Source: Leifsonia poae (GTDB lineage: Bacteria; Actinomycetota; Actinomycetes; Actinomycetales; Microbacteriaceae). From it: a stretch of 39,825 nucleotides of DNA. Positions 4,894 to 34,513 of the stretch are shown piece after piece; position 1 is the stretch's first letter; every line of letters starts with the position of its first letter. A program made the translations under genes and the position numbers. A model generated the notes under the pieces. That model saw only the letters and a program-made list of their open reading frames with translations. It did no database searches and was not told the DNA's origin. Where the stretch lies: NCBI RefSeq assembly GCF_020009625.1, contig NZ_JAIHLP010000004.1:1-39825 (forward strand), written 5' to 3'.

Positions 4894-4921
4894 CCCTAAC
4901 TCTACATAGGTAGAGATAGGG
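4894..4921. promoter_or_regulatory. PadR operator and leaderless promoter (left copy)
   Basis: A 28-bp inverted repeat with arms CCCTA-A-CTCTAC and GTAGAG-A-TAGGG around an ATAG spacer; only one position in each arm fails to pair. It starts two bases upstream of the PadR ATG and includes the -10 box TAGAGT (minus strand, 4899-4904). A PadR dimer bound here would block RNA polymerase directly. The same site lies at 34187-34214. Confidence 0.7.
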
Positions 4922-4979
4922 CGTCCAGACCAAATTCCTCCTACTCGATTGGTTGCTCAGCCGGGTACCCGCGCAACGA

Positions 4980-5213: not shown

Positions 5214-5220
5214 GCCGTCG

Positions 5221-18220: not shown

Positions 18221-19441
18221 GTGACTCAGGATTTACCGCCTTCCCAGGAAGAGCACCTATCAGCAATAGCAACGGAGTTACGCGCTGTGCCCGTACGCGT
18301 TCGCCGTCTTTTTGGGTTGCCTCCGCTCGCCCTGGATCTGCTGGACGCAGCAGCTGCCACCGTCTATGACTTGCTCGATGAGACCGATCGAACATGGGAC
18401 GACCGGCTGGCCCAGCTACCGGTCCGGTTTGAACGGCTGTTTCCCGACGGAGTTCCGGAAGGCCGTCTGGACTGGTTGAACCTCCCTCAGGAAGAAATTG
18501 AGCAGAAGGTCAAGGAAAGCTTCGGGCGATTGAACAACCCAAACACGCGGCGCTTTTTGAATCGTCTGTTGGGGTCTAAGACGTTCAATCGGCTCACTGT
18601 TGCCTTCAACCAGGATTGGGCGCTGTTCCTGCTGGGCACGAGACGGCTGCTTCGAAGCTTTATGCCGGTCGCTCAGGCCCTGCAAGACGCGGCAGGGCCG
18701 CTCTCCGACAAGGAGAGAGCCAACCTGGGTGGATTCAGCGACGCTCAGACCGTTCTCCTGGACGCGGTCCTAAAGCTGGACCACGCTGTCGGCGGATTCT
18801 TTGACAAGCGCGACATCGATTTGCAGAAGATGGGGTTCCCGGTGCGTGATGCCGAGGCAAGAACTCTCGACGTTGGAGTTGATGAGCTAATCGACGTCAT
18901 GAGGACGATGCTCGACGTCGAAACGCAGCGCAGGGCCCAGGAGCTGAGCGACGTACTCTTCCGTAAGCTGCGCGGCTTTGAGCAGGCGCTGGCCGCTTCC
19001 GACGATGGCGTTTCACAGGCGGCAAATAGCCTGGTCGAATTTATCGATCGGCTCCTTCGTACGGCGTTCGACGAGGCCGACGTGCTTGAATGGATTGGAA
19101 AGCACTACCCAGACGATAAGAGCCTCGTGTTTGAGCGTGAAGGTCGAGCAATTCCGACCAAGCGGGCCAGTGCCCTTTGCTTCGCGCACGCCGCTCAGGC
19201 GCCCACCGAAACTTCCAACCTGGAATCGATGGTCGCACTCAGCATCGTTAAGGTGCGCTCGTCGGCTGAACGACTCAAGCACGCCAACGTGGGCGATCCC
19301 GATGAAGAAGCAGAACTCAGACGGCTCATGCTCGCCCTTCGGGGTGCACTGACTTTCATCCTGCGATTCAATTGGCTGCTTGCAGACGATGACCGGTACT
19401 TCTACCTCAGGGAGCGCTTCGCACCCCAGAAGGCGGCCTAA
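18221..19441 (+). CDS. Orphan helical hypothetical protein, 406 residues
   Basis: A GTG start at 18221 with GGAG five bases upstream. The protein reads without interruption and appears almost wholly helical, with no membrane segment, P-loop or clear catalytic motif. Notable stretches are DLLDAAAATVYDLLDETDRTWDDR, FFDKRDIDLQKMGF and LTFILRFNWLLADDDRYFY. It is the only large rightward gene in the 13-30 kb half, and its codons look less GC-extreme than its neighbours. The 3' end overlaps the coupling-protein gene tail to tail by 35 bases. An isolated, self-promoted gene of unknown family in this setting may be accessory cargo; a defence role would be conjecture. Confidence 0.75.
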   Translation: MTQDLPPSQEEHLSAIATELRAVPVRVRRLFGLPPLALDLLDAAAATVYDLLDETDRTWDDRLAQLPVRFERLFPDGVPEGRLDWLNLPQEEIEQKVKESFGRLNNPNTRRFLNRLLGSKTFNRLTVAFNQDWALFLLGTRRLLRSFMPVAQALQDAAGPLSDKERANLGGFSDAQTVLLDAVLKLDHAVGGFFDKRDIDLQKMGFPVRDAEARTLDVGVDELIDVMRTMLDVETQRRAQELSDVLFRKLRGFEQALAASDDGVSQAANSLVEFIDRLLRTAFDEADVLEWIGKHYPDDKSLVFEREGRAIPTKRASALCFAHAAQAPTETSNLESMVALSIVKVRSSAERLKHANVGDPDEEAELRRLMLALRGALTFILRFNWLLADDDRYFYLRERFAPQKAA

Positions 19442-21281
19442 TACTTCCCGCTGTCGTTGCGGCAGCGATATCGGCGCCTTCCACCCTGCGGTTGGGGAGC
19501 ACCCGGAACGCGGCCATTGAGCCGCCCTGGACGATCCAGAATTGTGCGTCGTTAGCTTCCCGCACATCCTGTGGCGGGATCACGTAGGTGTGTTGAGCTC
19601 GGGCGGATTTCAGTTCCTCGCCGGTCGCCATGCCGGAGGATTCCATCTGCATGTAGGTGCCGGCGTACTTCACGACGTCCTCGGGGTCTTTCTGCCGACC
19701 GAAGATCAGCGCAGCGCCGGAGGCGAGGGCGCGGCGTCGCCGTGTCTCGTCGTTGGACAGGCCCGCGGGGGACTGGGCGGCGAGGCCGAGGCCGACGCCG
19801 GCCGATCGCGCCGTCTCGTAGAGCGAGCCGGCCGTGTCGCCGGGATCACTGGTGCCGGTGACGAGTTGCGGGAACTCGTCGACGACGACGAGCACGGGCG
19901 TCTTGTCTCGCCGCATGAGCCGGTTCGTCAGGAAGTTCCGCAGGTCGAGCAACAGCAGGTCACCGAGACGAGCCTGCGAGTCGTCGGAGGGTGCCAGCGG
20001 AACGATGGTGATGTCCGCGTTCGGCTTCTCGTAGGACCACCCGTTGGGGTCCAGCCACCGCTCTAGCGGCCGCAGCGCGACGAGCAAGCTCTGCAACGTC
20101 CGCTGGCCGGCAGAAATGCCGGCGCGGGAGTCCACGATCGCGTTGACCATCTGGAGGTCGTACTGGTCGCGAACGTGCGGGGCCGGGTTGCTGAGGCGTT
20201 CGCGTAGGTCGTCGACGCTGCGCAGCGGCGACGCATCCTGCACCGCTTGCAGGATGCCGCGGATCTCATCGAGGTAGTGCTGATTCGCCCCGTCTGGGGG
20301 CGGCATCAGCCGCATGAGCTTCGTGGTCACCTGGTCGGCGGTGCCGGTGAACATGTCCCAGCCGGCGTTGATCGCCGCGGTGCGGCCGAAGCTCTCGGCC
20401 AGCGCTGCAAGCTTTTCGGCGTCCTCCGGGTCGCCCTTGGCGTCGATGAAGAACACCGGCCAGCCGTATTCGAGCGCGCACTGCATCGCGTCGTTCAGGA
20501 ACACGGTTTTTCCGGTGCCGGATTCGGCGATCAGCAGGAAGCGCACCGCGGATGCCGCGGTGGGCATCTGCGCGTACTTTCCGCCCGGGTCGATCCAGTC
20601 GCGCACACGGCGCGCGTCATAGAACCGATCGGCCAGTGTCCGCACCGTGGCGCGACTGACGAGCCCGAACGCCTGCGCACCCTCTGGGGTGCGCAGCGGA
20701 GCCGTCATCGCGCCTTTCGCGGAACCGGTGATCTGGCCCGTCTCGGCGTCGACGGTGACGCCCATCCGGCGCGCGGCCGCGCGATCGGCTGCGCGCTTGC
20801 GCGCCGTCTCGATCCTGGTCTGTTGCACGACGTCAGCGATGCGCCGGTTGCGTACGAGCGTCGCGACACGGCGACGTCGAATCGACCAGGTGACCGGCAG
20901 CAGGAGGATGCCGGCCAGGAAGTTGCCGAGCAGCCACGGCCACATGCCGAGCGCCTGGGCCTTCCAGTCGGGCGTCTTGAAGAACGCCGCGGCGTCGCCG
21001 CTCGCAATCCACTGTGCGAGCCAGGCGAGCTCGAAGCCGAGCAGCCCGGCGACGAGCAATACTCCGATCGTGTTGACGATCCACTGCCACCGCCAGGTGA
21101 CCCAGAACCACGTCTTGGTCGCGATGACCGTTCCGGTGACCCTGGCCACCATGAAGGGGATCACGAACGGGGCGCAAACCGCGACGAGCGCGAGGATCAG
21201 CACGGCGATGACAAGCTTCTCGACGAGCACGCTCGTGGCGTCGTCGGAGCCACCCTGCTGCACTTGCTGTTGGTTGCTCAT
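19407..21281 (-). CDS. VirD4/TraG-like type IV coupling protein
   Basis: 624 residues. The ATG at 21281 overlaps the preceding stop (ATGA), with a GGGGGA ribosome site. Four hydrophobic segments lie before residue 135 (KLVIAVLILALVAVCAPFVI, TIGVLLVAGLLGFELAWLA, LLGNFLAGILLLPVTW and one weaker). The motor has Walker A AESGTGKT (about residues 252-259) and Walker B VLVVVDEFPQL, followed by AQSPAGLS, the usual glutamine-containing motif of coupling ATPases. These proteins bind the DNA-relaxase complex and feed it to the channel. It lies about 6 kb from the rest of the conjugation operon, beside the candidate transfer origin. Confidence 0.85.
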   Translation of the reverse strand: MSNQQQVQQGGSDDATSVLVEKLVIAVLILALVAVCAPFVIPFMVARVTGTVIATKTWFWVTWRWQWIVNTIGVLLVAGLLGFELAWLAQWIASGDAAAFFKTPDWKAQALGMWPWLLGNFLAGILLLPVTWSIRRRRVATLVRNRRIADVVQQTRIETARKRAADRAAARRMGVTVDAETGQITGSAKGAMTAPLRTPEGAQAFGLVSRATVRTLADRFYDARRVRDWIDPGGKYAQMPTAASAVRFLLIAESGTGKTVFLNDAMQCALEYGWPVFFIDAKGDPEDAEKLAALAESFGRTAAINAGWDMFTGTADQVTTKLMRLMPPPDGANQHYLDEIRGILQAVQDASPLRSVDDLRERLSNPAPHVRDQYDLQMVNAIVDSRAGISAGQRTLQSLLVALRPLERWLDPNGWSYEKPNADITIVPLAPSDDSQARLGDLLLLDLRNFLTNRLMRRDKTPVLVVVDEFPQLVTGTSDPGDTAGSLYETARSAGVGLGLAAQSPAGLSNDETRRRRALASGAALIFGRQKDPEDVVKYAGTYMQMESSGMATGEELKSARAQHTYVIPPQDVREANDAQFWIVQGGSMAAFRVLPNRRVEGADIAAATTAGSIRPPSGVRSAP

Positions 21282-22021
21282 CGCGTCCCCCATCCATCGG
21301 TAGCCGGCCCACCGACTACCAAGCCGTCCAGCTGCGCCGGCACTTCGGCCGGCGTGCTTTCTGGCACCCCATCCCAAGCTCCACTCTCATCTCCGACCCA
21401 CTTCCCGCGCACGTCGAAAACGGGCAGGGCAAGGATGCGGTGACGGTCGTCACGGAACACTCTCGTGTCGGCTTCTCGGTTCACGATGCGAGCCGTGGTC
21501 GTGTCGCAGAAGTACACGATGCGGTCGACACCTTCGCGCGCCAGCCGCCATGTGTGGTTCTCGAAGATGACACGGTAACGGTCGATCGTTTTCGGCGTCA
21601 GCTCGACCTCGACCAGCTCGCGCCGGCCGTCCGGTCGGACGGCAACCCCGTCCGTCTGGTGCTCACTCCGCATCCCCGGTTTCCGGTCGCGCTCCAGCTG
21701 TAGCCGCGGCACAAGTAGCGCGCCGAGACGGCCGCCACCGCGACCTCGTGACGGGTCGTCTGACGGAACAGGTTGGGGGCGGTCTTGCCGATCGCCTGGT
21801 GCGTCGCCCAGACGATCGAACCGTCTCGGAAACGTGGGTCGAGCACGGTCGACCAGACCGACCTCAACGAGCCTCGCGGTCCACTGCTGAGCCTTCCGCA
21901 AACTCACCGGAGAGCCCGCACCAGACAACCCTCCGAGCGCCCACCGAAGCGCATCCATGTCGGCCATGCGAACCACGCTCAGCCACTCCACCATTGCTTC
22001 GTCACGCTCGGTCAGCTGCAC
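21278..22021 (-). CDS. Replication-relaxation-like protein (two compensating frame breaks)
   Basis: The start at 22021 gives a helical, winged-helix-like N-terminus (LTERDEAMVEWLSVVRMADM). The C-terminal domain holds VRPDGRRELVEVELTPKTIDRY, resembling the PD...E core of the replication-relaxation family. Between about 21838 and 21690 the plausible sequence (FRDGSIVWATHQAIGKTAPN, ARYLCRGYSW) is in another frame. Adding one C to the CCC run near 21846-21850 and one G near 21690 makes one continuous protein of about 248 residues. The stop overlaps the coupling-protein start. In other actinobacterial mobile elements such proteins sit beside coupling proteins. The function is not settled. Confidence 0.65.
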   Translation of the reverse strand: MQLTERDEAMVEWLSVVRMADMDALRWALGGLSGAGSPVSLRKAQQWTARLVEVGLVDRARPTFPRRFDRLGDAPGDRQDRPQPVPSDDPSRGRGGGRLGALLVPRLQLERDRKPGMRSEHQTDGVAVRPDGRRELVEVELTPKTIDRYRVIFENHTWRLAREGVDRIVYFCDTTTARIVNREADTRVFRDDRHRILALPVFDVRGKWVGDESGAWDGVPESTPAEVPAQLDGLVVGGPATDGWGTR

Positions 22022-22215
22022 CAGTGCCCCCTCTCACCTTGCTAACCAAGCTACCAGGTAGAACGCTTGTGTGTCACCTGATCGGGGCTCAGAGCGACAG
22101 GAATTTGAACACGGCTCCGCCGCGTCCGCTACCTTCCTGTATTGCTCGACTGTCGCTCACAACAGCCACCGATTCTCACCACCTACCCAAGGCAACATGC
22201 ACTCTCAAACCCCAC

Positions 22216-22320
22216 CACTCTCTCAACTTTGCATTGTTTTTCTTCTTCCCTTTTCTTCTTTCTCACACTCTTTTTCTTGCCCTGCCCTGCCCCCACCCCT
22301 TTACTTCCCAACCTCCCTCA
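22216..22320 (+). other. Polypyrimidine tract
   Basis: About 105 bases that are almost all C and T on the plus strand, running into the left arm of the large inverted repeat. This is sharply unlike the rest of the window. It codes for nothing convincing. Such tracts can form triplex (H-DNA) or unwind easily. Confidence 0.6.
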
Positions 22321-22411
22321 GACAACTTGTTGGGTGCGGGAGGTTGGGAAGCGCGCGTAGCGCGGGGTGGGGGCAGGGCAGGGCAAACCCGGCCACGGGT
22401 ATGCGTTTGCC
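22277..22411. other. Large nested inverted repeat: candidate oriT or replication origin
   Basis: Outer arms 22277-22299 and 22364-22386 are perfect 23-base complements (TTGCCCTGCCC... with ...GGGCAGGGCAA). Inner arms 22304-22317 (CTTCCCAACCTCCC) and 22338-22351 are perfect over 14 bases. The loop is 20 bases. A second hairpin follows: GGCAAAC (22382-22388) with GTTTGCC (22405-22411), enclosing CCCG/CGGG. The element lies between the replication-type genes and the replication-relaxation/coupling-protein genes, where an origin of transfer or replication is expected. Function is inferred from structure and position only. Confidence 0.6.
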
Positions 22412-22507
22412 TATTCGCGCTCGGTGAATAGTCCGACGTACTAGCTCAGAACCGGTGGAGCTGTCGATCAGCGGCTCTCAGAGCCGCCAGGCGGCCCCCT
22501 GAGGCCG

Positions 22508-22744
22508 CTACTCGCACCCGCGAACCTTTGGCAACGTGACGATCGACGCTGGCTCCTGCCAGCCGCGGGGAGTGAGCGCCTGCGCCAACCTCCCGCGGCT
22601 CGTCGACGACCAACCAACGGCGCATGTGTGCTCCTGGCCGACCATCTGCACCGTTACGGGTGAGGCCGCAGCAGCGACAGCGCTGCGGCCGCTCTCGATA
22701 CGCGCAAACCTGGTGAAAGAACTGCAAGGTGTGTAAGCGGTCAT
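22508..22744 (-). CDS. Small hypothetical protein in the rep operon
   Basis: 78 residues; the ATG at 22744 overlaps the stop of the preceding gene as ATGA, which supports it over the longer frame at 22446-22763. The sequence (FARIESGRSAVAAAASPVTV, QMVGQEHTCAVGWSS, ALTPRGWQEPASIVTLPK) has a few cysteines but no clear metal motif. Family not recognised. It is the last gene before the large inverted repeat. Confidence 0.55.
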   Translation of the reverse strand: MTAYTPCSSFTRFARIESGRSAVAAAASPVTVQMVGQEHTCAVGWSSTSRGRLAQALTPRGWQEPASIVTLPKVRGCE

Positions 22745-23034
22745 CGGTGGCTCCGTCCGGCACGGTGGGCCTCGATCGCGTCGAGGCGAGCGTACAGCTG
22801 GGCGAGCGAAATTGCAGCGTCGGTGGTCCGTTGGCCGGCGAGGTTCAGCACCGGGAACAGGTCAGCCGGCGCACTCTCCGGGGGTCGGAACCAGACCTCC
22901 GTGACGGGGTTGTGGTCGTCGTCGACGTGCTCGGATCGCGACGGCTCCCACGTCCATTGGACGTCGCCGTGCTCGATCCCTTCGACGTCGATTGACCAGC
23001 CTCTCCCGGTCAGAATCGCGTGCAGGTCGAGCAC
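22741..23034 (-). CDS. Hypothetical protein, possibly continuous with the Rep gene
   Basis: 97 residues from a GTG at 23034. The sequence (GRGWSIDVEGIEHGDVQWTW, TEVWFRPPESAPADLFPVLN, AAISLAQLYARLDAIEAHR) looks like a small mixed alpha/beta protein ending in a helix. The frame stays open further upstream (FEFPQAVQDLHQKVLDLHAIL), overlapping the end of the Rep gene, and no ribosome site precedes the GTG. A missed frame shift joining it to Rep, or an upstream non-canonical start, is therefore possible. Family unknown. Confidence 0.5.
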   Translation of the reverse strand: MLDLHAILTGRGWSIDVEGIEHGDVQWTWEPSRSEHVDDDHNPVTEVWFRPPESAPADLFPVLNLAGQRTTDAAISLAQLYARLDAIEAHRAGRSHR

Positions 23035-24233
23035 CTTTTGGTGGAGGTCCTGGACCGCCTGGGGGAACTCAAAAGCATGCCGGCCGACGCGAGCAGCACG
23101 TCGCTGATCGCTCGCGGCGACGTCGCCCGCTCACGTCGACGAGCCTCGTCGCGTGCTCGAATTGCGGCGTCCGATTCTGCCCGGATGCGGGCAAACTCAC
23201 CGGGGGAAAGCGATGCTCGACGCTGCCTCTCGGCCTCCCTCTCACGAGCGGCCTGCGCACGCTGAGCTTGCAGCTCACGCGCCCGCTTGTCGCTCGCGAC
23301 GGCCGGGGGAGTCTCGCCGGGCTCGATCGTCTGCCGGATCATCCATGCGAAGTAGCGCAACGGATCTTCTGCCGTGTGCAGCTTCTCGTGTGCGGCGGGG
23401 AACCGACCAGCGATCCGCTGCGTTAGCTCGCCCAGCGACCACGACTCCGCCACGCCGGCACGGCGTAGCAGCTGATCGATCTGGCCGATGTGGCGGCCGC
23501 GCGCCAGGGCGTTCCCATAGTGGCGATCCAGCTGTGCGAGGAACCGCTGACGGGTGATCGCGCGTACCTGCGGGACTGGACGTACATGCTTGACCGGATC
23601 GCCCTTCTTCCGTCCAGGCTCGGGCCGCGGAGCGGCCTCCGATTGCGCGCTTGCGCGCGTTTGCTCTAACGAGAATTCGTAAGTTGATAGAGGGTTTTGA
23701 GCGTTAACAGGTAGGTGGACATTCTTAGTGTTCACCGACGACTTATCCACAGCCGGCAGGGTCAGCGCGAGCACCGAGGCGGCCCGCAGTTGCACACTCT
23801 GGTGCAGCGCTCTGGCGGCCTCTCGCTCGTCCGCGTAGAGGTACCGGCCCTCTGCTACGGTCGCGGCAAACCCGAGCGCTTCGAGCGTCCTCGTGGCACG
23901 CTGGATGGTCTTAGCGCAGCGCTCCACCGCACCGCCCACGGTGTCATGCGCCACGGTGACGCTGCGGCCCGTGGCGACGTCGGCGCGCTCGGCGTACTCG
24001 GCAGCAATCGCTAGCAGGGTGCGTCGTGCAACCTTCCGGGACGCACGTGCCGCCTCGCCCTCCGGAGTACCCAGAGCGGCCGTGAGCGCCGCAAGCCAAT
24101 GCTCGCGACCTCGCCATGCGACGATCGGCCCGTAGGCACCTTCGGGCACCGGCAGCGACCAGCTGCGCGGACGCGACGCACCCGGTCGCTCCGAGGCGGG
24201 CCCAGGGGTCGACAGGCCGACGCCCGCCGACAC
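23010..24233 (-). CDS. Putative plasmid replication initiator (helix-turn-helix Rep)
   Basis: 407 residues from a GTG at 24233. The N-terminal part (about residues 50-170) looks like a winged-helix replication or primase-like domain (LAALTAALGTPEGEAARASR, AVERCAKTIQRATRTLEALGF). A linker follows, then a basic region (VKHVRPVPQVRAITRQRFLA), a second helical domain and a long charged coiled coil (ARELQAQRAQAAREREAERQ). Proteins with this layout act as initiators on actinobacterial plasmids. No other replication gene is visible, which supports the call. The last 20 residues are low-complexity Ser/Arg and may be out of frame. No catalytic motif was found. Confidence 0.55.
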   Translation of the reverse strand: MSAGVGLSTPGPASERPGASRPRSWSLPVPEGAYGPIVAWRGREHWLAALTAALGTPEGEAARASRKVARRTLLAIAAEYAERADVATGRSVTVAHDTVGGAVERCAKTIQRATRTLEALGFAATVAEGRYLYADEREAARALHQSVQLRAASVLALTLPAVDKSSVNTKNVHLPVNAQNPLSTYEFSLEQTRASAQSEAAPRPEPGRKKGDPVKHVRPVPQVRAITRQRFLAQLDRHYGNALARGRHIGQIDQLLRRAGVAESWSLGELTQRIAGRFPAAHEKLHTAEDPLRYFAWMIRQTIEPGETPPAVASDKRARELQAQRAQAAREREAERQRRASLSPGEFARIRAESDAAIRARDEARRRERATSPRAISDVLLASAGMLLSSPRRSRTSTKRCSTCTRF

Positions 24234-24983: not shown

Positions 24984-26234
24984 CTAGCCGAGGAGCGTGT
25001 CGACCTGTTTCGCTGCGTCGGAGAGTGCCTGCTCCACGTCTTTGCCCTGCTGCGCCTGCTGGAGCGCGAGCGTGATGATGTTCTCGAGCTGGGACTCCTG
25101 CTTGACACCCGGCGGGAGCACGACGTGCTCGATCGAGTCGAGGACGGCCTGGCGGTTTGCCGGCTTGCCCGCGGTCAGGTAGGCCGACAGCTTGCTCTGA
25201 TCCGAGATGGCCGGGACCTCCCAGGCGGAGCTGATCCGCTGCTGCACGGTCGTGTCACTGCTGGTGAGGTACTCGATCCATTCGAGCGCCTCCTTCGGGT
25301 GCTTCGTGCTCTTCGAGATCACCGCCGCGTTGCTGAAGAACTGCGACGCCTTCTGGGCATCCCCCGGGTCGACCACGATGTCCCAGTCGTCCTTCATGGA
25401 GTCAAGCTCGGAGAACGCCCAGATGCCCTGCTCCATCATCGCGAGCTTCCCGTCCAGAAACAGCTGGGACTCTCCTCCCGAGCCGAGCTGCGCGGCGGTC
25501 GGCATAGTGGTGCCGACCTTTCCGATCAGCCAGTTCGCCGCCTTCACTCCGGCCGTGCTGTCGAAGACGGCCTTCGTCTTGTTCGCGTTCAGGATGGAGC
25601 CGCCGGCCTGCGCGATGGCCTTATAGAACTCCGAGAACTGCACCGGCTGATAATCCCCGTAGATGCCGGCGGCCCGATCTGTGAGCTTCTTAGCGGCGGC
25701 CTGCTCATCCGCCCACGTCCACGAGTTCGTCGGGTAGGCGAGCCCCGCCTTGTCAAACATGGTCTTGTTGTACGCAAGGACGACGCTTGAGAAACTCTCC
25801 GGCAGGCCGTACTGCTTGCCCGAAAGCGTGAACGACTGATACGGCTTCTTGGCGTAGACCGATGAGTCCACGGAGAGTCCGTTCGAATTGAGATCCAGCA
25901 GGGCGTCCGAACCGGCGAACGACAGGTAGTTCGCGTAGTCCAGCTCGAAGGTGTCGGGGGCGCTGCCGCCGGAGACGCGCGTGCGGACGTTCGTGAAGTA
26001 GTTGTCGTACGCGGCCGTGGTCACCTTGATGGCGATGTTCGGGTGGCTCTTCTCGAACGCCGCGATGATGGCATCGAGCTGCTTCGTGTGGTCAGGGGAC
26101 GAGGAGAAATTGGCGTATTCGAGCGTCACCTTCTCATCGGAACCGCCGTTTCCCTGGCTGCAGCCCGACAGCGCGACCGCGGTAATTCCCGCGAGCATCG
26201 CCGCGACCGCGGTGAGTGCCTTGCCTCTTTTCAT
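24984..26234 (-). CDS. Sugar ABC transporter substrate-binding lipoprotein (MalE-like)
   Basis: 416 residues from the ATG at 26234, which has AAAGG eight bases upstream (a GTG at 26243 would add three residues). A lipoprotein signal ends in the lipobox LSGC near residue 25. The mature protein follows the family 1 extracellular solute-binding pattern: FEKSHPNIAIKV, SGGSAPDTFELDYANY, YGLPESFSSVVLAYNKTMFD, FLDGKLAMMEQGIW. It would capture an oligosaccharide outside the membrane and hand it to the two permeases encoded upstream. Two GH13 enzymes in the operon suggest maltose, trehalose, sucrose or isomalto-oligosaccharides. This is the last gene of the operon. Confidence 0.9.
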   Translation of the reverse strand: MKRGKALTAVAAMLAGITAVALSGCSQGNGGSDEKVTLEYANFSSSPDHTKQLDAIIAAFEKSHPNIAIKVTTAAYDNYFTNVRTRVSGGSAPDTFELDYANYLSFAGSDALLDLNSNGLSVDSSVYAKKPYQSFTLSGKQYGLPESFSSVVLAYNKTMFDKAGLAYPTNSWTWADEQAAAKKLTDRAAGIYGDYQPVQFSEFYKAIAQAGGSILNANKTKAVFDSTAGVKAANWLIGKVGTTMPTAAQLGSGGESQLFLDGKLAMMEQGIWAFSELDSMKDDWDIVVDPGDAQKASQFFSNAAVISKSTKHPKEALEWIEYLTSSDTTVQQRISSAWEVPAISDQSKLSAYLTAGKPANRQAVLDSIEHVVLPPGVKQESQLENIITLALQQAQQGKDVEQALSDAAKQVDTLLG

Positions 26235-26258
26235 GTTGCGCACCTTTCGTGTGTCCGC

Positions 26259-27083
26259 TCAGCCTTTGAGTCCGGACATTGAGACCCCTTGCAGCACATA
26301 CCGTTGTGCGAAGAGGAAGACAGCGATGACAGGAACCACCGAGACTGCCGCCCCCGCGAGCACCATGTTCCAGTTCTTGTCGTAGACGCCCGACATGTTT
26401 GACAGTCCCAGAGGAAGGGTCATCATGTCGGTGCTGTGAATCGCGATGAGCGGCCAGAGGAAGCTGTTCCATGCGCCCATGAAGGAGAAGATCGCGACGG
26501 TCGCAAGGATCGGTTTCGACATGGGCACGACAATGCTGAAGAACACCCGAATATGCCCTGCGCCGTCCACAAAGGCGGCTTCCTCGATCTCACGGGGCAG
26601 TTGGAGGAACGCCTGCCGCAGCAGGAAAATCCCGAACGGCATAGCGATATCGGGCAGGATTAGCGCCGCGTAGGTATCGAGGAGGTTCATCGACTTGAAC
26701 TCAACAAAGAGCGGGACGATCAACACCTGGAACGGCACCATCAGTGTCGCGAGGACCAACACGAACAGAGCGTTGCGTCCGGGGAACTCCAGCCGCGTGA
26801 ATCCATAAGCCGCGAGGGCACTGGTGGTGACCTGGATCACCGTGAGCACGCCGGAGACCAGGATGCTGTTCAGCATCCATCGCAGCATCGGTTCGTTCTC
26901 GAATAGCTGGACGTACCCGCTGACGTCGAACGGCTGGGGGATCAGCTGAGGCGGCGTGCGGAACAGGTTCCCCGGGGCCGTGAGCGAGGTGGAGATCATC
27001 CACACGAACGGGAAGAGGAACACGATCGCGCCCGCGACCATCACCACGATGATCGTGGGTTTGCCGAGTCGGAGTCTATGCAT
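26259..27083 (-). CDS. Sugar ABC transporter permease (MalG-like)
   Basis: 274 residues, six predicted membrane helices. The cytoplasmic EAA loop reads EEAAFVDGAGHIRVFFSIVVP (about residues 182-202), the contact for the ABC ATPase. The N-terminus (TIIVVMVAGAIVFLFPFVWM) and YGFTRLEFPGRNALF are typical of the MalG/UgpE class. The start overlaps the preceding permease by eight bases, so the two are translated together. No ATPase gene is in the operon or window; such systems commonly use a shared chromosomal MsiK-type ATPase. Confidence 0.9.
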   Translation of the reverse strand: MHRLRLGKPTIIVVMVAGAIVFLFPFVWMISTSLTAPGNLFRTPPQLIPQPFDVSGYVQLFENEPMLRWMLNSILVSGVLTVIQVTTSALAAYGFTRLEFPGRNALFVLVLATLMVPFQVLIVPLFVEFKSMNLLDTYAALILPDIAMPFGIFLLRQAFLQLPREIEEAAFVDGAGHIRVFFSIVVPMSKPILATVAIFSFMGAWNSFLWPLIAIHSTDMMTLPLGLSNMSGVYDKNWNMVLAGAAVSVVPVIAVFLFAQRYVLQGVSMSGLKG

Positions 27084-27960
27084 CGTAGGTGACCCATCGT
27101 CGTTGGAGGCGGAATTGGACGAGCGTGAAGACGAGGATGATCGCGAACAGCACCCAGCTCATCGCGGATGCGCCGCCCATGTCTCCGTACGAGAACGCTT
27201 GCTGCACGACCTGCTGGAGGATGACCGTCGTCGAGCCGGCGGGACCCCCGCCGGTCATGATGTAGACCTGGTCAAAGACCTGGAACCCGCCGATCAGGCT
27301 CAGGACCACCACGAAGAAGATCGACGGTGTCAGAAGCGGGAGGGTGATGTAGAAGAGTCGTTTGACGGATCCGGCGCCGTCGAGGCGCGCCGCCTCGTAG
27401 AGGTGCGTCGGGATCGATTGCAGCCCGGCCAGCAGGATAAGCATGTTGAAGCCCATGTCCTTCCAGACCGACGCGATGATCACAGCGGGCATCGCCCACA
27501 CGGGATCCGTCCACCAGCCGGGGCCGGAGATGCCGACGAGCCCGAGGAGGAAGTTTACGATTCCGCCGTCGGGGCTCAGCAGCCACTTCCATAGCAGCGC
27601 GACGACGATCCAACTGGTGACCACCGGCAGGTAGTAGATGGCACGGAACACCCCGCGTCCGCGGATCTTCGTGTTGAGCAGCAGGGCGAGGACAAGCGCG
27701 CCGAGCAGCACGAGCGGCACGTAACCGCAGAGATAGTAGAGCGTGTGTAGGAGCGCCTGACCGAAGTCCGCGTTCGTGAGGACCTTCGCGTAGTTCTTCA
27801 GTCCCACGAACGTGGCGGGACTTAGGAGGTCCCAATTCAGGAGGCTCGTCCACAGCGACGAGATCATGGGGTAAAACCGGAAGGCAATCAGTGGGACGAC
27901 CGCGGGCCCAATGAAAAGCAGGATTAGTCCGGCCTTGCGCCAGCCTCGGGTGCCGACCAT
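27076..27960 (-). CDS. Sugar ABC transporter permease (MalF-like)
   Basis: 294 residues with about six membrane helices (GLILLFIGPAVVPLIAFRFY, YVPLVLLGALVLALLLN, AIYYLPVVTSWIVVALLW) and the EAA loop YEAARLDGAGSVKRLFYITLP near residues 195-215. This is the MalF/UgpA class. Its ATG overlaps the stop of the GH13 gene as ATGA. It pairs with the MalG-like protein as the membrane channel for the sugar captured by the lipoprotein. Confidence 0.9.
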   Translation of the reverse strand: MVGTRGWRKAGLILLFIGPAVVPLIAFRFYPMISSLWTSLLNWDLLSPATFVGLKNYAKVLTNADFGQALLHTLYYLCGYVPLVLLGALVLALLLNTKIRGRGVFRAIYYLPVVTSWIVVALLWKWLLSPDGGIVNFLLGLVGISGPGWWTDPVWAMPAVIIASVWKDMGFNMLILLAGLQSIPTHLYEAARLDGAGSVKRLFYITLPLLTPSIFFVVVLSLIGGFQVFDQVYIMTGGGPAGSTTVILQQVVQQAFSYGDMGGASAMSWVLFAIILVFTLVQFRLQRRWVTYDA

Positions 27961-29309
27961 CAGTCGACCTCCCCAATGAGCAACGGGTTCCGTCTGGTAG
28001 GCCAGCTCACGAGAGCCGCCACGTCGAGGACGACGGCGGGTGCCGCGGTGTGCAGCAGGCCGTTCGCGACGACCACCTCGGCCTCAGCGAGCAGGTCGGT
28101 GTACCGGCCGTCGGGAATTCGCACGGGCACGGGACCGCCGGTACCGTCCACGTCGAACAGGCCGAGGAGGGTGTGCGGTTCATCGGCCTCGATCGCGCTC
28201 CACGACAGCCCGATCCACGGAGCGGACTCGAGCACGTCAAAGCGACGCAACCAACGCGTCTTCTTCTTCGCGCTGATCAATCGTGTGAGCACCGCCGACA
28301 GGTCAACTCCGGACCAGTCGACGGGTTCGCGCTCGAAGAGCGAAGGCCTAGCCGCGGCGGAGGCCTCCTGCCCGGCGTACATCAGGAACGGGCCGGGGAG
28401 CAGAGCCGTCAAGGCAGTCCAGGCGAAGGCGCGATCGGTGCTGAGGAAGCTTTGCACACGTGCGTTGTCGTGATTCTCGACGCAGCGTAGCTTCATGGCG
28501 GTCGGCGGCCGGGTGAGGCCCTGCCACTGGACGAGGTCTACGTACTGTAGCGCGGATGCACGACCGTCTGTCGCGTTGCGCCACAACTGCCACGTGTCGT
28601 AGGGGTACTCGATGTCGAACGCCTGGAACACCTCCGCGTCCTCGTGCACGGTGATGCCGGCGCGGCGGCAGAACGCGATCATCCCAGGGTCGACGGTCTC
28701 GGCGATCCACAGGGTCCCCGGGTGCGCCGCATCTACGACAGCTCGCGCATCCAGCCAAAAGTCGAGCGGGACGAGGGATGCGACGTCGCAGCGGAACCCG
28801 TCCACACCCCGAGCCGCCCAAAACAGAAGAACCTCGAGGAGGTGGGCTCGGACAGCTCTGTCGAAGACGAGCTCGGCGACGTCCCCCCACTCGGGGATCG
28901 ACCCTGTTGGTTCTGCGGCGACGTCGCGCATGACAGCGTCAGGCAGCTCCTGGGCGAGCACGGCGTCCGGTGAGACGTGATGGAACACGATGTCGAGCAC
29001 GACGCGCAGGTCCAGCGCGTGCGCGCGGGTCACCAGCTCGTCGAAGTCGCCGTCGGTGCCCTGCTCCGGGTCGATCCGCCGGTAGTCCTGGATCGCGTAC
29101 GGGCTTCCGACTGATCCGATGCGGCGCTCGCGACCGATCGGCTGGACCGGGGTGAGATAGAGGATGTCGGCCCCGAGGGCGCTGATGCGCTCGAGCTCTG
29201 CCGTGACCGCCCGGAGGCTTCCATCGGCGGAGAACGCCCGTGGATACACCTGGTAAATCGTGGCCGCCGCGATGTCGGAGTCCGGCGCGATGAATGACGT
29301 CTCAGCCAT
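27960..29309 (-). CDS. GH13 alpha-amylase family glycosidase (second enzyme)
   Basis: 449 residues; the ATG at 29309 overlaps the end of the alpha-glucosidase by eight bases, which fixes the start. Translation upstream of it belongs to another frame. The barrel starts at IYQVYPRAF. Conserved region I is DIVFHHV. The nucleophile is Asp175 (GFRCDV), the acid/base Glu204 (WIAETVD) and the transition-state Asp281 (ENHD). It is shorter than typical oligo-1,6-glucosidases, with a small C-terminal beta domain. The substrate is an alpha-glucoside, probably the intracellular product of the transporter. No signal peptide is present, so it is cytoplasmic. Confidence 0.88.
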   Translation of the reverse strand: MAETSFIAPDSDIAAATIYQVYPRAFSADGSLRAVTAELERISALGADILYLTPVQPIGRERRIGSVGSPYAIQDYRRIDPEQGTDGDFDELVTRAHALDLRVVLDIVFHHVSPDAVLAQELPDAVMRDVAAEPTGSIPEWGDVAELVFDRAVRAHLLEVLLFWAARGVDGFRCDVASLVPLDFWLDARAVVDAAHPGTLWIAETVDPGMIAFCRRAGITVHEDAEVFQAFDIEYPYDTWQLWRNATDGRASALQYVDLVQWQGLTRPPTAMKLRCVENHDNARVQSFLSTDRAFAWTALTALLPGPFLMYAGQEASAAARPSLFEREPVDWSGVDLSAVLTRLISAKKKTRWLRRFDVLESAPWIGLSWSAIEADEPHTLLGLFDVDGTGGPVPVRIPDGRYTDLLAEAEVVVANGLLHTAAPAVVLDVAALVSWPTRRNPLLIGEVD

Positions 29310-30969
29310 GCTGGTACCAGACGGTGGTGTCGGGTTCGAGACGCACGGGACCGTCGGTGGGGACGGAACCGTCGCTGAACAGGTAGACGCGCTCTGCCTC
29401 GAGTGTGACGGAGTGAGAGCCGAAGTTGGTCGCGGACGTCCAGCCGTTCGGCCGGCGGAACGCCACGACATCCGGCGCGATGTCGAGCCACTCCAGACGC
29501 TCGTCAGTCTGCAGCATTCGCCGACCGGCGAGCGCGTCCTGGTAGAGGGACAGCACCGAACCCGAGCGTCCGCTCTGGGTATCGACCGCGAACTCGGCGA
29601 ACCAGGCCGGCTGCGGCAGGTGCGCACCACCCGCGCCGAAGCCGAAGGAAGGCCCGTCTGCCGTCCACGGGAGCGGCACGCGGCAGCCGTCCCGGCCGAT
29701 TTCCTGACCTCCGGTGCGGAAGAACGTGGGATCCTGGCGGTCGTCGCCGGGGATGTCGGCGACCTCCGGCAGACCGAGCTCCTCACCTTGGTACAGGTAC
29801 ACACTGCCGGGCAGCGCCATCGCCAGCAGGGTGGCGGCGTTAGCGCGGCGCAGGCCCAGGTCGCGGTCCTCCCGCGGTTCCACGCCATGGGAGAGGAGCC
29901 ACGCGTGGCCCTCGCTGTCTGTGGAGGGGAGGCCGAACCGGGTGGCGTGTCTGACCATGTCGTGGTTGGAGAACACCCACGTGCTGGAGCTCCCGCTCTG
30001 CGCCGAGAGATCGAGGTTCTCCTCCACGATGCGCCGGAACTGCGCGGCGTCCCAGGTGGCCTTGAGGAGGTCGAAGTTGAATGCCTGTCCGAGGCCCTGC
30101 TCGGTGGCGTAGCGGATCCGCCGCTCCGCGGGCACCCAGGCCTCCGCGACGGCGGTGAGCGGTGGCGTGTAGCGGTCGAACAGGCGTCGCCACTCCGCAT
30201 AGATCTCGTGCACTTCGTCGCGGTCCCAGATCGGATGCGTCCCGACTGGGAAGTGTGTTGGGTCTTCGAGCTGGACCTGCGTCGGCAGCTCAACTCCCAG
30301 CCCCTTGGTCAGAGCGTGGGCGACGTCGACACGGAATCCGTCGACCCCGCGATCTGCCCAGAACTCAAGGGTGGTCAGAAAGTCCTGTCGCACCTCGGGA
30401 TTCGACCAGTTCCAGTCGGGCTGCTCGCGAGCGAACAGGTGCAGATACCACTGCCCATCCGGCACGCGGGTCCAGGCCGGCCCTCCGAAGATCGACGTCC
30501 AGTCCGACGGTGGCTCTGAGCCGTCCGGGCCGCGCCCGTCGCGGAAGATGTAGCGGTCGCGGGCGGCGGAACCGGGTACGCTGCGCAGGGCTTCCTGAAA
30601 CCAAGCGTGCTGATCGGAGCTGTGGTTCGGCACGATGTCGACAATCACCTTGATGTCGACGTCATGGAGGCGGGCGACCAGCGCGTCGAAGTCCGCAAGC
30701 GTACCGATGCGCGGGTCGACGTCGCGATAATCCGCGACGTCGTAGCCGCCGTCCGCGAGCTCGGACGGGTAGAACGGGCTCAGCCAGACTGCGTCGATGC
30801 CGAGATCGCGCAGGTAGTCGATGCGGGAGATCAGCCCAAGGAAGTCGCCTACTCCGTCGCCGTTACCGTCCGCGAAGCTGCGCGGATACACCTGATACAC
30901 GGCTGCCTGCCGCCACCACCGGTCGGGAGATTCCACACGGGTGGCGTTCAGAACGCTTTCGGTCACCAT
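29302..30969 (-). CDS. GH13 alpha-glucosidase (oligo-1,6-glucosidase/AglA type), intact copy
   Basis: 555 residues, first gene of the sugar operon; ATG at 30969 with AAGGA six bases upstream. The N-terminal barrel carries VYQVYPRSFADGNGDGVGDF and LGIDAVWLSPFYPSELADGG. Conserved region I is DIVPNH (about 111-116), the nucleophile Asp215 (GFRVDVAH), the acid/base Glu276 (AVAEAW) and the transition-state Asp337 (SNHD). The PSELADGGYDVADYRDV pattern is typical of alpha-glucosidases of GH13 subfamilies 23/30. It hydrolyses terminal alpha-glucosidic bonds in the cytoplasm. No signal peptide. A ROK regulator diverges from its promoter. Confidence 0.92.
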   Translation of the reverse strand: MVTESVLNATRVESPDRWWRQAAVYQVYPRSFADGNGDGVGDFLGLISRIDYLRDLGIDAVWLSPFYPSELADGGYDVADYRDVDPRIGTLADFDALVARLHDVDIKVIVDIVPNHSSDQHAWFQEALRSVPGSAARDRYIFRDGRGPDGSEPPSDWTSIFGGPAWTRVPDGQWYLHLFAREQPDWNWSNPEVRQDFLTTLEFWADRGVDGFRVDVAHALTKGLGVELPTQVQLEDPTHFPVGTHPIWDRDEVHEIYAEWRRLFDRYTPPLTAVAEAWVPAERRIRYATEQGLGQAFNFDLLKATWDAAQFRRIVEENLDLSAQSGSSSTWVFSNHDMVRHATRFGLPSTDSEGHAWLLSHGVEPREDRDLGLRRANAATLLAMALPGSVYLYQGEELGLPEVADIPGDDRQDPTFFRTGGQEIGRDGCRVPLPWTADGPSFGFGAGGAHLPQPAWFAEFAVDTQSGRSGSVLSLYQDALAGRRMLQTDERLEWLDIAPDVVAFRRPNGWTSATNFGSHSVTLEAERVYLFSDGSVPTDGPVRLEPDTTVWYQHG

Positions 30970-30996
30970 TGATCCTTCCGAGAGAGACGATCCAGA

Positions 30997-31015
30997 ATTT
31001 ATCTAGGTTCTAAAT
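30997..31015. promoter_or_regulatory. Candidate ROK operator (right copy)
   Basis: ATTTATCTAGGTTCTAAAT, identical to the left-copy site at 1707-1725. It lies between the divergent start codons, where one bound dimer could repress both directions. Confidence 0.45.
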
Positions 31016-31028
31016 CTAAGACGTGCAC

Positions 31029-31040
31029 TATTGTTGTCAC
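31029..31040 (+). promoter_or_regulatory. Leaderless -10 region of the ROK gene (right copy)
   Basis: TATTGT (31029-31034), then TGTCAC and ATG. This copy has the correct reading frame. No ribosome-binding site is present. Confidence 0.5.
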
Positions 31041-32294
31041 ATGTCGAGGGTTTGGGCAAGTCCCGCAGAGAAATCGATTCCAACGCACGCGCTGGTCGCG
31101 ACGTCAACGAACGTCCTCCGGCGCTCGAACACGCTCGCGCTGCTGAAGATCTTCAGCAGCGCGTCCGCCGGCAAGAGCTTCACAACGTCCGAACTCATCG
31201 AGCTCTCCGACCTCACGCGCTCCACCATCCTGGCCGTTTGCGACGATCTGCTGGCTGCGGGTTGGATCGCGGAGTCGGATGCCGGCCCCCGGGTGGAAGG
31301 GACCCGCGGCAGGCCCTCCCGCCGCTTCGCCCTGAACCCGGGCGCGGCCCACGTCGTCGGGGTTGATCTCGGCTTCTCATCCGTGACCTGCGTGGTCGCC
31401 GACCTGCTCGGCCAGATCGTCGGACGCTCGAGACGAGCCTTTCACTCGCGCCCCGACAGCCCCGAGTGGATCATCGATCGGACGGCCGAGACGCAGGCGG
31501 CCGTCGACGAATCCCTCCACGACGCCGGAGCTGAAGCCGGGACCGTCCTAGCCGCCACGCTCGCCGTACCCGCACCCGTCGATCACACCGGTCGGGTGGG
31601 CGTCGGCGACGAGTTCTGGGACTGGATCCGGATCGATCCCGACCTGCTGTTCAGCGGCCACCCGGAATGGCCCATCGTCGTAGAAAACGACGCCAACCTC
31701 GCCGCGCTGGCCGAACGTGAGGCGATGTCCGGCCCGGCGCAGTCGCTCGTCGTCCTCCTCGCCGGCGACCGCTTCGGCGCGGGCATCGTCGAGAACGGTG
31801 TTCTCCACCGCGGACACCACGGCGGCGGGGGCGAGATGAAATACCTCAGCCTAATCGAGGGCGTCGGCAGCACAGTGGGAATCGGGCGACTGGCTCAGGA
31901 TTGGGCGCAGGACGCAGTTGGCGACCATCTGCAGACGAAGCTGACGTCCGAGAGCGTCGCCGCCGACGTGTTCCGGCTGGGAGAGGAGGGCGACGACGTG
32001 GCTCACGACATCTCCGGCCGCCTCCTCGACCGTCTGGCGCGCGTCATCGCGACCCTCGTCAGCCTCCTCGACCCCGGCCGAATCGTCCTTGGCGGCGGAG
32101 TGGCGACGTCGCTCCAGCCACTCATCCCCGAACTCCGCCTGCGCGTCGAGGAGCACACGGCGTTCGCCAGCGAGTTGCTCGCCTCGCCCCTGGCGAGCGA
32201 CATCGTCATCCAGGGCGCGGTGCACGCGGCGCTCGCCCATGTCTGGGATCATGCTCTGAAGAGTTCCCCCAGCGCTCCCACGGCGATCCGCTAG
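31041..32294 (+). CDS. ROK-family transcriptional regulator, intact copy
   Basis: 417 residues from the ATG at 31041, chosen because it sits six bases after a -10 box; the ORF could also be extended 18 bases upstream. A winged helix at the N-terminus (ELIELSDLTRSTILAVCDDL, then LAAGWIAE) binds DNA. The ROK sugar-kinase-like domain follows (VVGVDLGFSSVTCVVADL; VVENDANLAALAERE; LAGDRFGAGIVENGVLHRG; HGGGGEMKYL). The usual CxCGxxGC zinc motif is missing: after GGGGEMKYL the sequence runs SLIEGVGSTVGIGR. Divergent from the sugar operon, it is probably its repressor with a sugar or sugar phosphate as inducer. A hairpin follows the stop. Confidence 0.9.
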   Translation: MSRVWASPAEKSIPTHALVATSTNVLRRSNTLALLKIFSSASAGKSFTTSELIELSDLTRSTILAVCDDLLAAGWIAESDAGPRVEGTRGRPSRRFALNPGAAHVVGVDLGFSSVTCVVADLLGQIVGRSRRAFHSRPDSPEWIIDRTAETQAAVDESLHDAGAEAGTVLAATLAVPAPVDHTGRVGVGDEFWDWIRIDPDLLFSGHPEWPIVVENDANLAALAEREAMSGPAQSLVVLLAGDRFGAGIVENGVLHRGHHGGGGEMKYLSLIEGVGSTVGIGRLAQDWAQDAVGDHLQTKLTSESVAADVFRLGEEGDDVAHDISGRLLDRLARVIATLVSLLDPGRIVLGGGVATSLQPLIPELRLRVEEHTAFASELLASPLASDIVIQGAVHAALAHVWDHALKSSPSAPTAIR

Positions 32295-32312
32295 CCGGTG
32301 AGCCCACCGGCT
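32293..32312 (+). terminator. Hairpin after the ROK gene (right copy)
   Basis: AGCCGGTG/CACCGGCT stem, identical to 3002-3021. Confidence 0.45.
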
Positions 32313-32513
32313 GTCGGCTGATTCGGCATCACCTCATTTCGCGAAGCTCGTCGAGGCCATCCAAGTCTCCTTCGCTGATAATATACCTTATGTCAGTTTG
32401 AACATGGCAATCCCCGTTAGATGCGAATGCGACACCTAGCCGCGGCTCCCCCGGTGGCCCTTGGGTCGGGCCACCCAAGAGGTCGTGGCTCCTGCCACCA
32501 CCTCAGTTTTCAC

Positions 32514-33058
32514 TCACAAGTCCTTGTTCTTCTTGCTACGGGATCCGCCTTCGGAGATCTCGCCATTTTCAGAGCGCTTCCATGTAACCCCATCGGCATC
32601 CCGGAATCGCAGCTCTACCAAGAAGTCCCACGGCTCATGCCCGCGAAGGTCGATTTCACCATCGACTACTTTGGGCCCCCTAGTCCGCTGCGCTTCGCTG
32701 TACGGGAGCAGAGCGAAGACCTGCTCGAATCCAGGTGGCACAACGGCTTGATCCAAGTCCACCACGCCCCGGGCAGCTAGTTCGCCGTATCCATTCACCA
32801 TGAGATATAGATCGTAGATCGGTACGTTGTTGCCGTTTCTGAGCCAAACGTCGTAGTGCTCGGAAGTATCGCCCTCGCCACCCAAGCGGAGACCTTCGAG
32901 GCAACCCTGCGCCTACGTTCCTGCGCCCGCCTCAAACCCTGTGCGCGAGCATCTCGCCAGGATAGAGCCGCGTAGATTCCAGCCGTCACTGCCGCGACGA
33001 CCAACCCAACCGTGGCTATTGCGGTCACCCACGAGGGCACATCCCCCCACATGCTCAT
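32514..33058 (-). CDS. Small membrane-anchored hypothetical protein, right copy (frame interrupted)
   Basis: Second copy of 3222-3765. It carries only the shared missing G (GTGGC run) and gives the longer C-terminal reading: after the break the protein continues GGEGDTSEHYDVWLRNGNN through FEQVFALLPYSEAQRTRGPK to a Lys/Asp tail at 32514. Restoring one base yields 181 residues with one membrane helix at the N-end. Role unknown. Confidence 0.6.
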
Positions 33059-33124
33059 GCACGAACCCTATAGTGGCGCGGCCGGATAGAAGAGGTTACA
33101 GCGTCAGACGCCACCGAGATACAG

Positions 33125-33865
33125 TCAGACCTCCGGATTGACCACCGAATAGTCGCGATGATCCTGGTAGGAGCCATCAACGGCGAGCGGCACTGTCGAT
33201 CGCCGAACCTTCCGCGCGATTTGAGGTGTAACCGATTGCCTCCGCCACTCTCGTTCGAAAACACACGCCGCGCTGATGACCTTGTGGCTGAAGACGAACT
33301 GCTTGTTGCCGTTCAACACCTGCACAGAGCCATCTGTGCCGGAGCGCACCGAAACGCCGGGATACACGGACATGACCAGCACGTCATCATCGTGGCCCAT
33401 CCTCACGCTCATCAAAGGCTCACCGCTCGGGCCTTCAAAGTCGAGCATCAGGGGAAGTATCGGAAGCGCATCATCGCTGTGCCGATACCGCCGGAGAAAC
33501 TCGTTCTCCGGAAAGATCGGGTAGATCATGGTTTCCGCATACGACTTAGCAACCTCGGTCCTTCGAGTAAATCGCCCGGCAAACCGCCGATAGCCCAGTT
33601 GCCAGAGGCGAGGGGCGAGGCCCTCGCTTAGGGCGCGTTCACACTGCTGAAGCGCCCACACCGGCTGCCTCAGATGCGGGACCGCGTAGAGCTCGGCGAT
33701 CATCTCATTGCGGCGCGCGTCACCTTTCCGGAAGGCGAGGGAAGCGAGTCTCACAATCCAGCCCGGGGCGATCCCCCAGACGAGGAGCAGAGCCGCCCCC
33801 ATGCCGACGAGCGGCCACAGCCCCAACAGAGAGGCAAGTTTCGCGAAATCGAAATCTACATTCAT
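33125..33865 (-). CDS. Membrane-anchored hypothetical protein in a PadR operon (right copy)
   Basis: Identical to 3832-4572: 246 residues, one N-terminal membrane helix and a large soluble domain, overlapping the PadR stop by four bases. Confidence 0.7.
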   Translation of the reverse strand: MNVDFDFAKLASLLGLWPLVGMGAALLLVWGIAPGWIVRLASLAFRKGDARRNEMIAELYAVPHLRQPVWALQQCERALSEGLAPRLWQLGYRRFAGRFTRRTEVAKSYAETMIYPIFPENEFLRRYRHSDDALPILPLMLDFEGPSGEPLMSVRMGHDDDVLVMSVYPGVSVRSGTDGSVQVLNGNKQFVFSHKVISAACVFEREWRRQSVTPQIARKVRRSTVPLAVDGSYQDHRDYSVVNPEV

Positions 33866-34185
33866 GTCATCGCCAGCCTTGCCTGTTGGGGCCTTGTCGC
33901 CCCCACGCGAGCCTGTGATGCGAGGAATCGACTCTGAGCCGCTCCCAACTCACGAAGGCCCGTATCGGTGATCTCGTAATAGCGGCGGGGAGGGCGGCCG
34001 TTAGCTTCGCTGGGATCCTCCCAGCCGTCGGTCAGCCATCCTTCGTCCATCATGCGTCCAAGGATTGGGTAGAGGACGCCTGACCGAACACCGCTGTCCA
34101 CACTCAACCGGTATCCCCAGTGTCGTTCCTTTGGGGCGTCGAGGAGTGCGGTCGCGACCTTCACGAGAGACGGAGTGATCTTCAT
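33862..34185 (-). CDS. PadR-family transcriptional regulator (right copy)
   Basis: Identical to 4569-4892: 107-residue winged-helix PadR protein with the same leaderless, palindrome-covered promoter. Confidence 0.88.
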   Translation of the reverse strand: MKITPSLVKVATALLDAPKERHWGYRLSVDSGVRSGVLYPILGRMMDEGWLTDGWEDPSEANGRPPRRYYEITDTGLRELGAAQSRFLASQARVGATRPQQARLAMT

Positions 34186-34186
34186 G

Positions 34187-34214
34187 CCCTAACTCTACAT
34201 AGGTAGAGATAGGG
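34187..34214. promoter_or_regulatory. PadR operator and leaderless promoter (right copy)
   Basis: Identical to 4894-4921: arms CCCTA-A-CTCTAC and GTAGAG-A-TAGGG around ATAG, containing the TAGAGT -10 box on the minus strand. Confidence 0.7.
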
Positions 34215-34272
34215 CGTCCAGACCAAATTCCTCCTACTCGATTGGTTGCTCAGCCGGGTACCCGCGCAACGA

Positions 34273-34506: not shown

Positions 34507-34513
34507 GCCGTCG

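Follow-up and report, generated by a model that had tools for sequence, protein, structure and literature searches.

What is the function of the large nested inverted repeat that lies in the noncoding space between a replication gene and the candidate transfer genes of a Leifsonia poae plasmid? An earlier note on this DNA, made from the sequence alone, had read the structure as a candidate origin of transfer (oriT) or other origin. The window, by which we mean the whole 39,825-nt stretch analyzed (contig NZ_JAIHLP010000004.1), repeats bases 1-10533 at 29289-39825 with 99.81% identity when compared with itself, the copies differing in places, and looks like a circular plasmid of ∼29.3 kb that was assembled past its own start and left untrimmed. 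To the left of the hairpin, and pointing away from it, lie a gene for a MobC-like (replication-relaxation) protein (21278-22021, minus strand) and then one for a type IV secretion system (T4SS) ATPase of the coupling-protein-like or VirB4-HerA type (19407-21377, minus strand). To the right, a plasmid Rep-family gene (23010-24233, minus strand), recognized by tblastn matches to annotated replication proteins, points toward the hairpin; its product matched no Pfam family. This gene order, with both sets of genes leftward, is the one that had been described. Part of a VirB4-like conjugation ATPase is also encoded at 36092-37387 on the minus strand (32.4 bits to NF045971, for which the cut-off is 325), with a longer frame in the overlapping copy at 6799-8988 that likewise matched no Pfam family.

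The whole nested hairpin spans 22277-22386, and we give all of its parts on the plus strand. The 23-bp outer stem is formed by a left arm at 22277-22299 and a right arm at 22364-22386 that is 100% complementary to it. Enclosed within are an unpaired TTTA (22300-22303), a perfect 14-bp inner stem made by CTTCCCAACCTCCC (22304-22317) and GGGAGGTTGGGAAG (22338-22351), a 20-nt apical loop (22318-22337) in which fold prediction and RNAalifold place short extra pairs, and, filling the 12-nt gap on the right (22352-22363), a side hairpin of the form GCGC-GTA-GCGC. The stem lengths, the loop and the unequal gaps of 4 and 12 nt are exactly as the earlier note had given them, and two of its other descriptions hold in part. 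The lead-in at 22200-22276 is pyrimidine rich, but what had been called a nearly pure C/T tract of ∼105 nt is 83% C/T across 22200-22303, with 86% in the best 100-nt stretch. The adjoining hairpin is present in the fold prediction as ACCCG-GCCA-CGGGT at 22387-22400, but its stem has just 5 bp, and the second hairpin that recurs in relatives is found at ∼22404-22438, mostly outside the interval then marked, with a core of CTATTC-gcgctcggt-GAATAG at 22411-22431; it is a possible protein-binding site. The nested hairpin is far beyond chance: the longest perfect arm in the 29.3-kb unit, allowing gaps of up to 150 nt, is 23 nt, against a maximum of 14 in 100 first-order Markov sequences, and the region 22200-22450 folds better than shuffled versions on either strand (z of -10.3 and -8.6, with 0 of 200 shuffles equaling it).

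The same hairpin sits between Rep and MobC on plasmids of Herbiconiux, Microbacterium, Clavibacter, Curtobacterium and Gryllotalpicola, and an exact-pattern scan of 84,980 species genomes returned 28 further stretches in 27 genomes. One of these records is titled merely uncultured actinobacterium, the other genera being named by record titles, and we take all genera with the core to belong to the Microbacteriaceae. The comparison of stems among homologous plasmids that the earlier note proposed brought out compensating changes. The 44 structures reduce to 36 distinct outer stems whose left arms share 54% of positions on average, and 688 of their 715 pair cells are Watson-Crick, compared with a mean of 398 (maximum of 427) with columns shuffled, a contrast that is enlarged because the stem finder takes the best-scoring register of each row, which favors paired cells, and because the stems stem from related species, so that shuffles overstate their independence. 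This count omits L001, L002, L009, L012, L022 and later loci with an already-seen core, as well as the palindromic L019 and reverse readings of the same hairpins, and it includes L030 with a misregistered core. Positions of the outer stem hold ∼3.6 pair types each. RNAalifold predicted 46 pairs from 16 chosen rows, 35 of them with two-sided changes (two rows of this alignment, L026 and L037, are offset in their coordinates and truncated on the right), and the side hairpin at 22352-22363 covaries as well, with two-sided changes at 4 of its 5 predicted pairs in the alignment of relatives.

The motif TTTAC is invariant in 16/16 aligned rows, many of which were found by a pattern requiring it; the exceptions elsewhere are AGAAC in two Microbacterium members and TATAC or TTCAC in a few others. 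Inner stem and TTTAC are largely kept as sequence and the outer stem as pairing, and, within Microbacteriaceae, the hairpin is conserved as an architecture around a conserved core. The unpaired TTTA beside the inner stem is kept in most members, and we would, speculatively, regard it as a candidate nic region. The pyrimidine bias also recurs: the 100 nt preceding the left arm average 73% C/T in 43 rows (L032, with 26 nt, was dropped), compared with 52% for the sequence following the right arm in 44 rows, both means including the invalid row L007; before the left arm of L011, whose core is flipped, the value is 45%. Perfect arms of at least 8 nt mark a second hairpin in 16/44 right flanks versus 5/44 stretches taken 400 nt further on, although these 16 are not all one motif and the perfect arm of the window's own second hairpin is 6 nt.

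Which of the neighboring genes the hairpin accompanies could be read from the genomes that carry it. A MobC relative was found in 21 of the 27 core-bearing genomes (one by a weak 62-residue match and one by a partial match), and a Rep relative in 6, with none in the remaining 21. Of the 28 stretches themselves, 18 include MobC, without exception on one and the same side of the core; 4 include Rep, and 14 an integrase relative. Starting from the protein, we found 18 plasmids that encode a MobC relative, and all 14 of the plasmid regions examined contain the core. Over 30 MobC loci examined out of 39 places, a set that includes the window itself and overlaps the earlier one, a nested hairpin lies 53-356 bp upstream of the MobC match in 27; we counted nested inverted repeats rather than motif hits (28/30), because the loose motif also matches control loci. 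The three loci lacking one are L112, which has a motif hit only, and L128 and L129, where the MobC matches are partial or weak. Across 398 genomes of the family, the core pattern occurs in 17, a lower bound since the pattern demands TTTAC and an exact core, MobC in 29 and both in 12, where ∼1 joint occurrence would be expected by chance; the reversed pattern used as a control had 0 matches in the same 398 genomes.

Five plasmid loci with Rep and without MobC gave no core motif (at L015 the search covered just the region downstream of Rep). One plasmid, pCT1, carries the hairpin and Rep without MobC; its strain also has pCT2, which does bear MobC, and it is the Rep side of pCT2 that the arms of pCT1 match. 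By these comparisons the hairpin tracks the MobC-like gene, not Rep. Plasmid pCM1 also bears the hairpin site, and a strain cured of pCM1 and pCM2 is described as having acquired both from other strains (PMC4059874). Relatives of the T4SS ATPase were found on three Nocardia and Cellulosimicrobium plasmids (L131-L133), and we do not extend the system beyond Microbacteriaceae because these plasmids have no MobC match below an E value of 0.4 and no comparable nested hairpin. We also observed a single genome (G124) with six MobC matches, all on one contig (C1).

Both proteins encoded next to the hairpin have a domain makeup that bears on its function. All 34 MobC members match NF041423, the NCBIfam MobC replication-relaxation family, at an E value of 0.1 or less; the protein from the window has the best E value of the 34 (5.3e-9) and scores 35.7 bits, below the curated cut-off of 200. 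In their alignment, D124, E138, E140 and K144 are invariant in 34/34, and we take these residues to form a predicted PD-(D/E)XK-type catalytic motif. Since the scores of the members are far below the curated cut-off, enzyme activity of the MobC-like protein is an assumption of our interpretation. In the structural model of a Cryobacterium relative (pLDDT of 90.5), residues 1-80 form a MarR-like winged helix, and in Foldseek the C-terminal half gave weak matches to restriction enzymes, Hjc and Can2/Cdn1, none at an E value of 0.001 or less. A further structure search listed almost only winged-helix proteins and covered mainly residues 1-80, so that the absence of nucleases from it means little, and searching PDB sequences with MobC returned no match at an E value of 1 or less. 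The portion of the window's MobC-like gene at 21690-21840 is readable in a frame other than that of the rest, and relatives differ there; this is probably assembly noise.

The model of the partner ATPase, again from the Cryobacterium relative (pLDDT of 74), matches VirB4, HerA, the Legionella coupling complex and Cag-beta, and 4 of the 120 ATPase relatives listed are named as type IV secretory system conjugative DNA transfer family proteins. From sequence and models, the two genes beside the hairpin would encode a coupling protein and a relaxase. The literature places MOBC relaxases among the PD-(D/E)XK enzymes and gives TraX, one of their number, a winged helix-turn-helix (PMC12857230); the known mobilizable plasmids with a VirD4 protein of their own are said to be few and to encode a MobC relaxase as well (PMC5704250). 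MOB-suite labeled several of the plasmids considered here as MOBC, a call made at the level of the record whose labeled gene may differ from the MobC-like gene, and typed 7 of the 18 MobC plasmids as nonmobilizable. A MobC-like relaxase has been named on Clavibacter pCM3 (PMC13327613), and it too may be other than the gene described here.

Some carriers of the hairpin have the site and no relaxase gene. In 6 of the 28 stretches (L025, L031, L034, L038, L043 and L049), MobC is absent and a tyrosine integrase gene follows the hairpin at a distance of ∼230-340 bp. A tRNA gene follows just past the integrase in L025, L038 and L049 and ∼1.9 kb past it in L031 and L043; no tRNA gene was found in L034. 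Stretches L025, L031 and L038 cover fewer than 800 bases on the MobC side, and their genomes gave no MobC match. Three further MobC-less members differ in setting: L023 has an integrase relative 3.4 kb off on the other side, and L041, with just a 15-bp stem, and L047 have no integrase relative in the stretch examined. The Herbiconiux genome of L043 shows what such an element can contain, namely, a 16.4-kb island (L139, 1026-17446) bounded by identical 24-bp repeats of the end of a tRNA-Arg gene, that is, an integrative element with a tyrosine integrase (Phage_integrase) near a tRNA and direct-repeat att sites. Besides the integrase and the hairpin it encodes AbiEi/AbiEii, a NACHT protein and an SMC/AAA-type ATPase resembling several defense ATPases (best PADLOC match Ppl, 5.6e-21). 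No relaxase family was detected in it by a Pfam scan of 8 of the 9 listed open reading frames or a PADLOC scan of 7 of the 9, and MobC is present elsewhere in the same genome.

The sites of these MobC-less members closely match MobC-linked ones. Compared with the MobC-linked L042, the cores agree at 53/54 (L025), 52/54 (L038), 50/54 (L043) and 48/54 (L031) positions, L047 agrees with L024 at 56/56 and L034 with L026 at 50/53. The closest MobC-linked core comes from the same genus in 6 of the 9; across genera, the values are 52/53 for L049, 48/53 for L023 and 47/58 for L041. In their flanks, the MobC-less and the matched loci are dissimilar; L047 is an exception, and the left flank of L043 a weak one. 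Elements without a relaxase that carry an oriT like that of a helper have been described under the terms iOriT, iMOB and pMOB (PMC11389934), and nonconjugative staphylococcal plasmids are described as carrying a close copy of the helper's oriT, termed oriT mimicry (PMC8136818). The MobC-less loci show this pattern in their sequences, with the pairing to a putative helper read from core similarity, although these islands could instead be decayed relatives rather than hitchhikers.

We propose that the structure is the oriT of a divergent MOBC-like mobilization system of Microbacteriaceae, and we put the probability of this at roughly three in four; as the best reading of the comparisons, this oriT would be common to plasmids, integrative elements and islands that lack a relaxase. 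It is a noncoding inverted repeat beside genes for an apparent relaxase and coupling protein. The oriT half of the earlier proposal is supported because the hairpin follows the MobC-like/T4SS-ATPase pair on plasmids and chromosomal elements, because its stem compensates and because it persists without MobC in integrase-bearing islands; the replication half of that proposal fared poorly, as Rep is missing from most carriers. Under the proposed mechanism, the MobC-like enzyme would use its winged helix to bind the site, where the conserved inner stem or the second hairpin may be the contact, and, after extrusion of the nested hairpin, would nick one strand close to its junction. The nicked strand would then be handed to the adjacent coupling-type ATPase and to a T4SS, either the element's own or a helper's, and elements with just the site and an integrase would be moved in trans. 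If, as we suggest, the enzyme recognizes the site by its core motif together with its shape, the sequence of the outer stem would be free to change as long as pairing is kept.

An alternative is that the hairpin serves replication, either as a vegetative origin or single-strand initiation site used by Rep or as an origin of the rolling-circle type at which the MobC-like protein would replicate excised elements. The hairpin does adjoin Rep here and on other plasmids, the protein name "replication-relaxation" fits such a role, and some relaxases are described as multifunctional (PMC5714925). Against this, 21 of the 27 core-bearing genomes have no Rep relative, the motif search gave no core at the five Rep-only plasmid loci, and the GC-skew extremes of the window fall at 30829 and 36027 (30847 and 15477 when detrended), not at the hairpin. 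On the co-occurrence data we reject an origin of vegetative replication (oriV) served by Rep, and we regard the replication role as a whole, including the rolling-circle version driven by MobC, which would be compatible with an oriT, as improbable. The hairpin also lies upstream of the MobC operon and folds strongly as RNA on both strands, as a leader, attenuator or terminator of that operon or of the upstream gene might, but the MobC-less islands have no MobC gene after the hairpin, the noncanonical cells of the outer stem (7 G-T, 11 A-C and 9 other) show no clear wobble-pair excess whichever strand is taken as RNA, neither strand has a T tract after the hairpin, and Rfam gave 0 matches in 10000-39825 at gathering scores. 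The T-tract result rules out a Rho-independent terminator and the Rfam result a known Rfam RNA, and a transcriptional or RNA element of any sort seems very unlikely.

Two rearrangements among the relatives bear on how the site might be processed. In the Clavibacter sepedonicus plasmids pCSL2 and pCS1 (L011 and L088), the core is inverted inside the outer stem relative to close kin (L013 and L086), and pCT1 contains a 21.6-kb palindrome (L051, 7890-29538; 99.87%) with the hairpin at its center, whose two arms both match pCT2 on its Rep side and meet at the foot of the inner stem. Both rearrangements would follow if a 3' end generated at the site folded back on itself; template switching or a long-read artifact would produce them as well. 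The hairpin might then be a packaging site, a recombination hot spot or a selfish palindrome kept by template switching, with no function in transfer; its near-perfect stems despite rapid sequence change fit template switching, as do the two rearrangements. Template switching alone, however, leaves the conserved core motif, the fixed orientation and the link to MobC unexplained, and the exact core pattern had 0 matches in viral contigs, which rules out a phage site and counts against packaging; we consider this family of explanations extremely unlikely.

Returning to the oriT reading, we can extend it to a more specific form in which a restriction-enzyme-like relaxase reads the extruded, T-shaped cruciform by its conserved core, the outer stem being free to vary, and leaves a 3' end able to fold back and prime synthesis, the site acting as a portable passport for relaxase-less defense islands across Microbacteriaceae. 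Such folding back and priming would explain the flipped core and the pCT1 palindrome; we hold this form only tentatively and think it doubtful. The terminal hairpins of parvoviruses are T-shaped nested palindromes. By analogy, the T shape is shared with the hairpin described here, whose relatives show a core flip and fold-back duplication, whereas the hairpin is internal to circular plasmids and chromosomes; to our knowledge, no proteins are shared between the two systems.

We found no description of this hairpin site, and no described oriT for Microbacteriaceae, in the open-access papers searched, and the closest parallels come from other systems. The oriT2 of plasmid pAD1 has an array of five direct repeats that serves as a binding site, 70-120 bp from nic. 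We saw no such five-repeat array in 21800-22700, where a repeat search gave two-copy direct-repeat families only, and because neither this array nor a score above the NF041423 cut-off was found, we file the site not as a pAD1-type oriT2 and MobC not as a curated family member. In its PD-(D/E)XK-type residues, its N-terminal winged helix and the coupling protein encoded next door, the system nonetheless resembles TraX of pAD1 and MobC of CloDF13 (MOBC) (PMC12857230, PMC5704250), while it differs in its distance from the NCBIfam MobC subfamily and in having a nested, covarying hairpin as its site. TraX, one MOBC prototype, is described as having been studied experimentally (PMC12857230). The MOBT oriT of ICESt3, with a hairpin at nic (IR1) and a distant repeat bound by a helix-turn-helix domain (IR2), is similar in having two inverted repeats and a relaxase with an N-terminal DNA-binding domain (PMC9371924), a likeness set by the number of repeats and not their sizes, and its relaxase belongs to an unrelated, Rep_trans-like family. 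The staphylococcal and iOriT elements share with ours a close copy of a helper's oriT in elements lacking a relaxase (PMC8136818, PMC11389934); unlike the staphylococcal cases, ours are actinobacterial chromosomal tRNA islands, one with defense cargo, and their helper is suggested by sequence.

If the oriT reading is right, the hairpin would provide a sequence-and-shape oriT signature readable in the genomes of an actinobacterial family and a model of origin processing by a restriction-enzyme-like (MOBC-type) relaxase, and it would suggest a route by which some defense islands may spread without a relaxase of their own. The cargo of the Leifsonia plasmid is of another kind: the region at 24984-32294 encodes a solute-binding protein, an alpha-amylase family protein and a ROK protein, a set of the sugar-uptake type.
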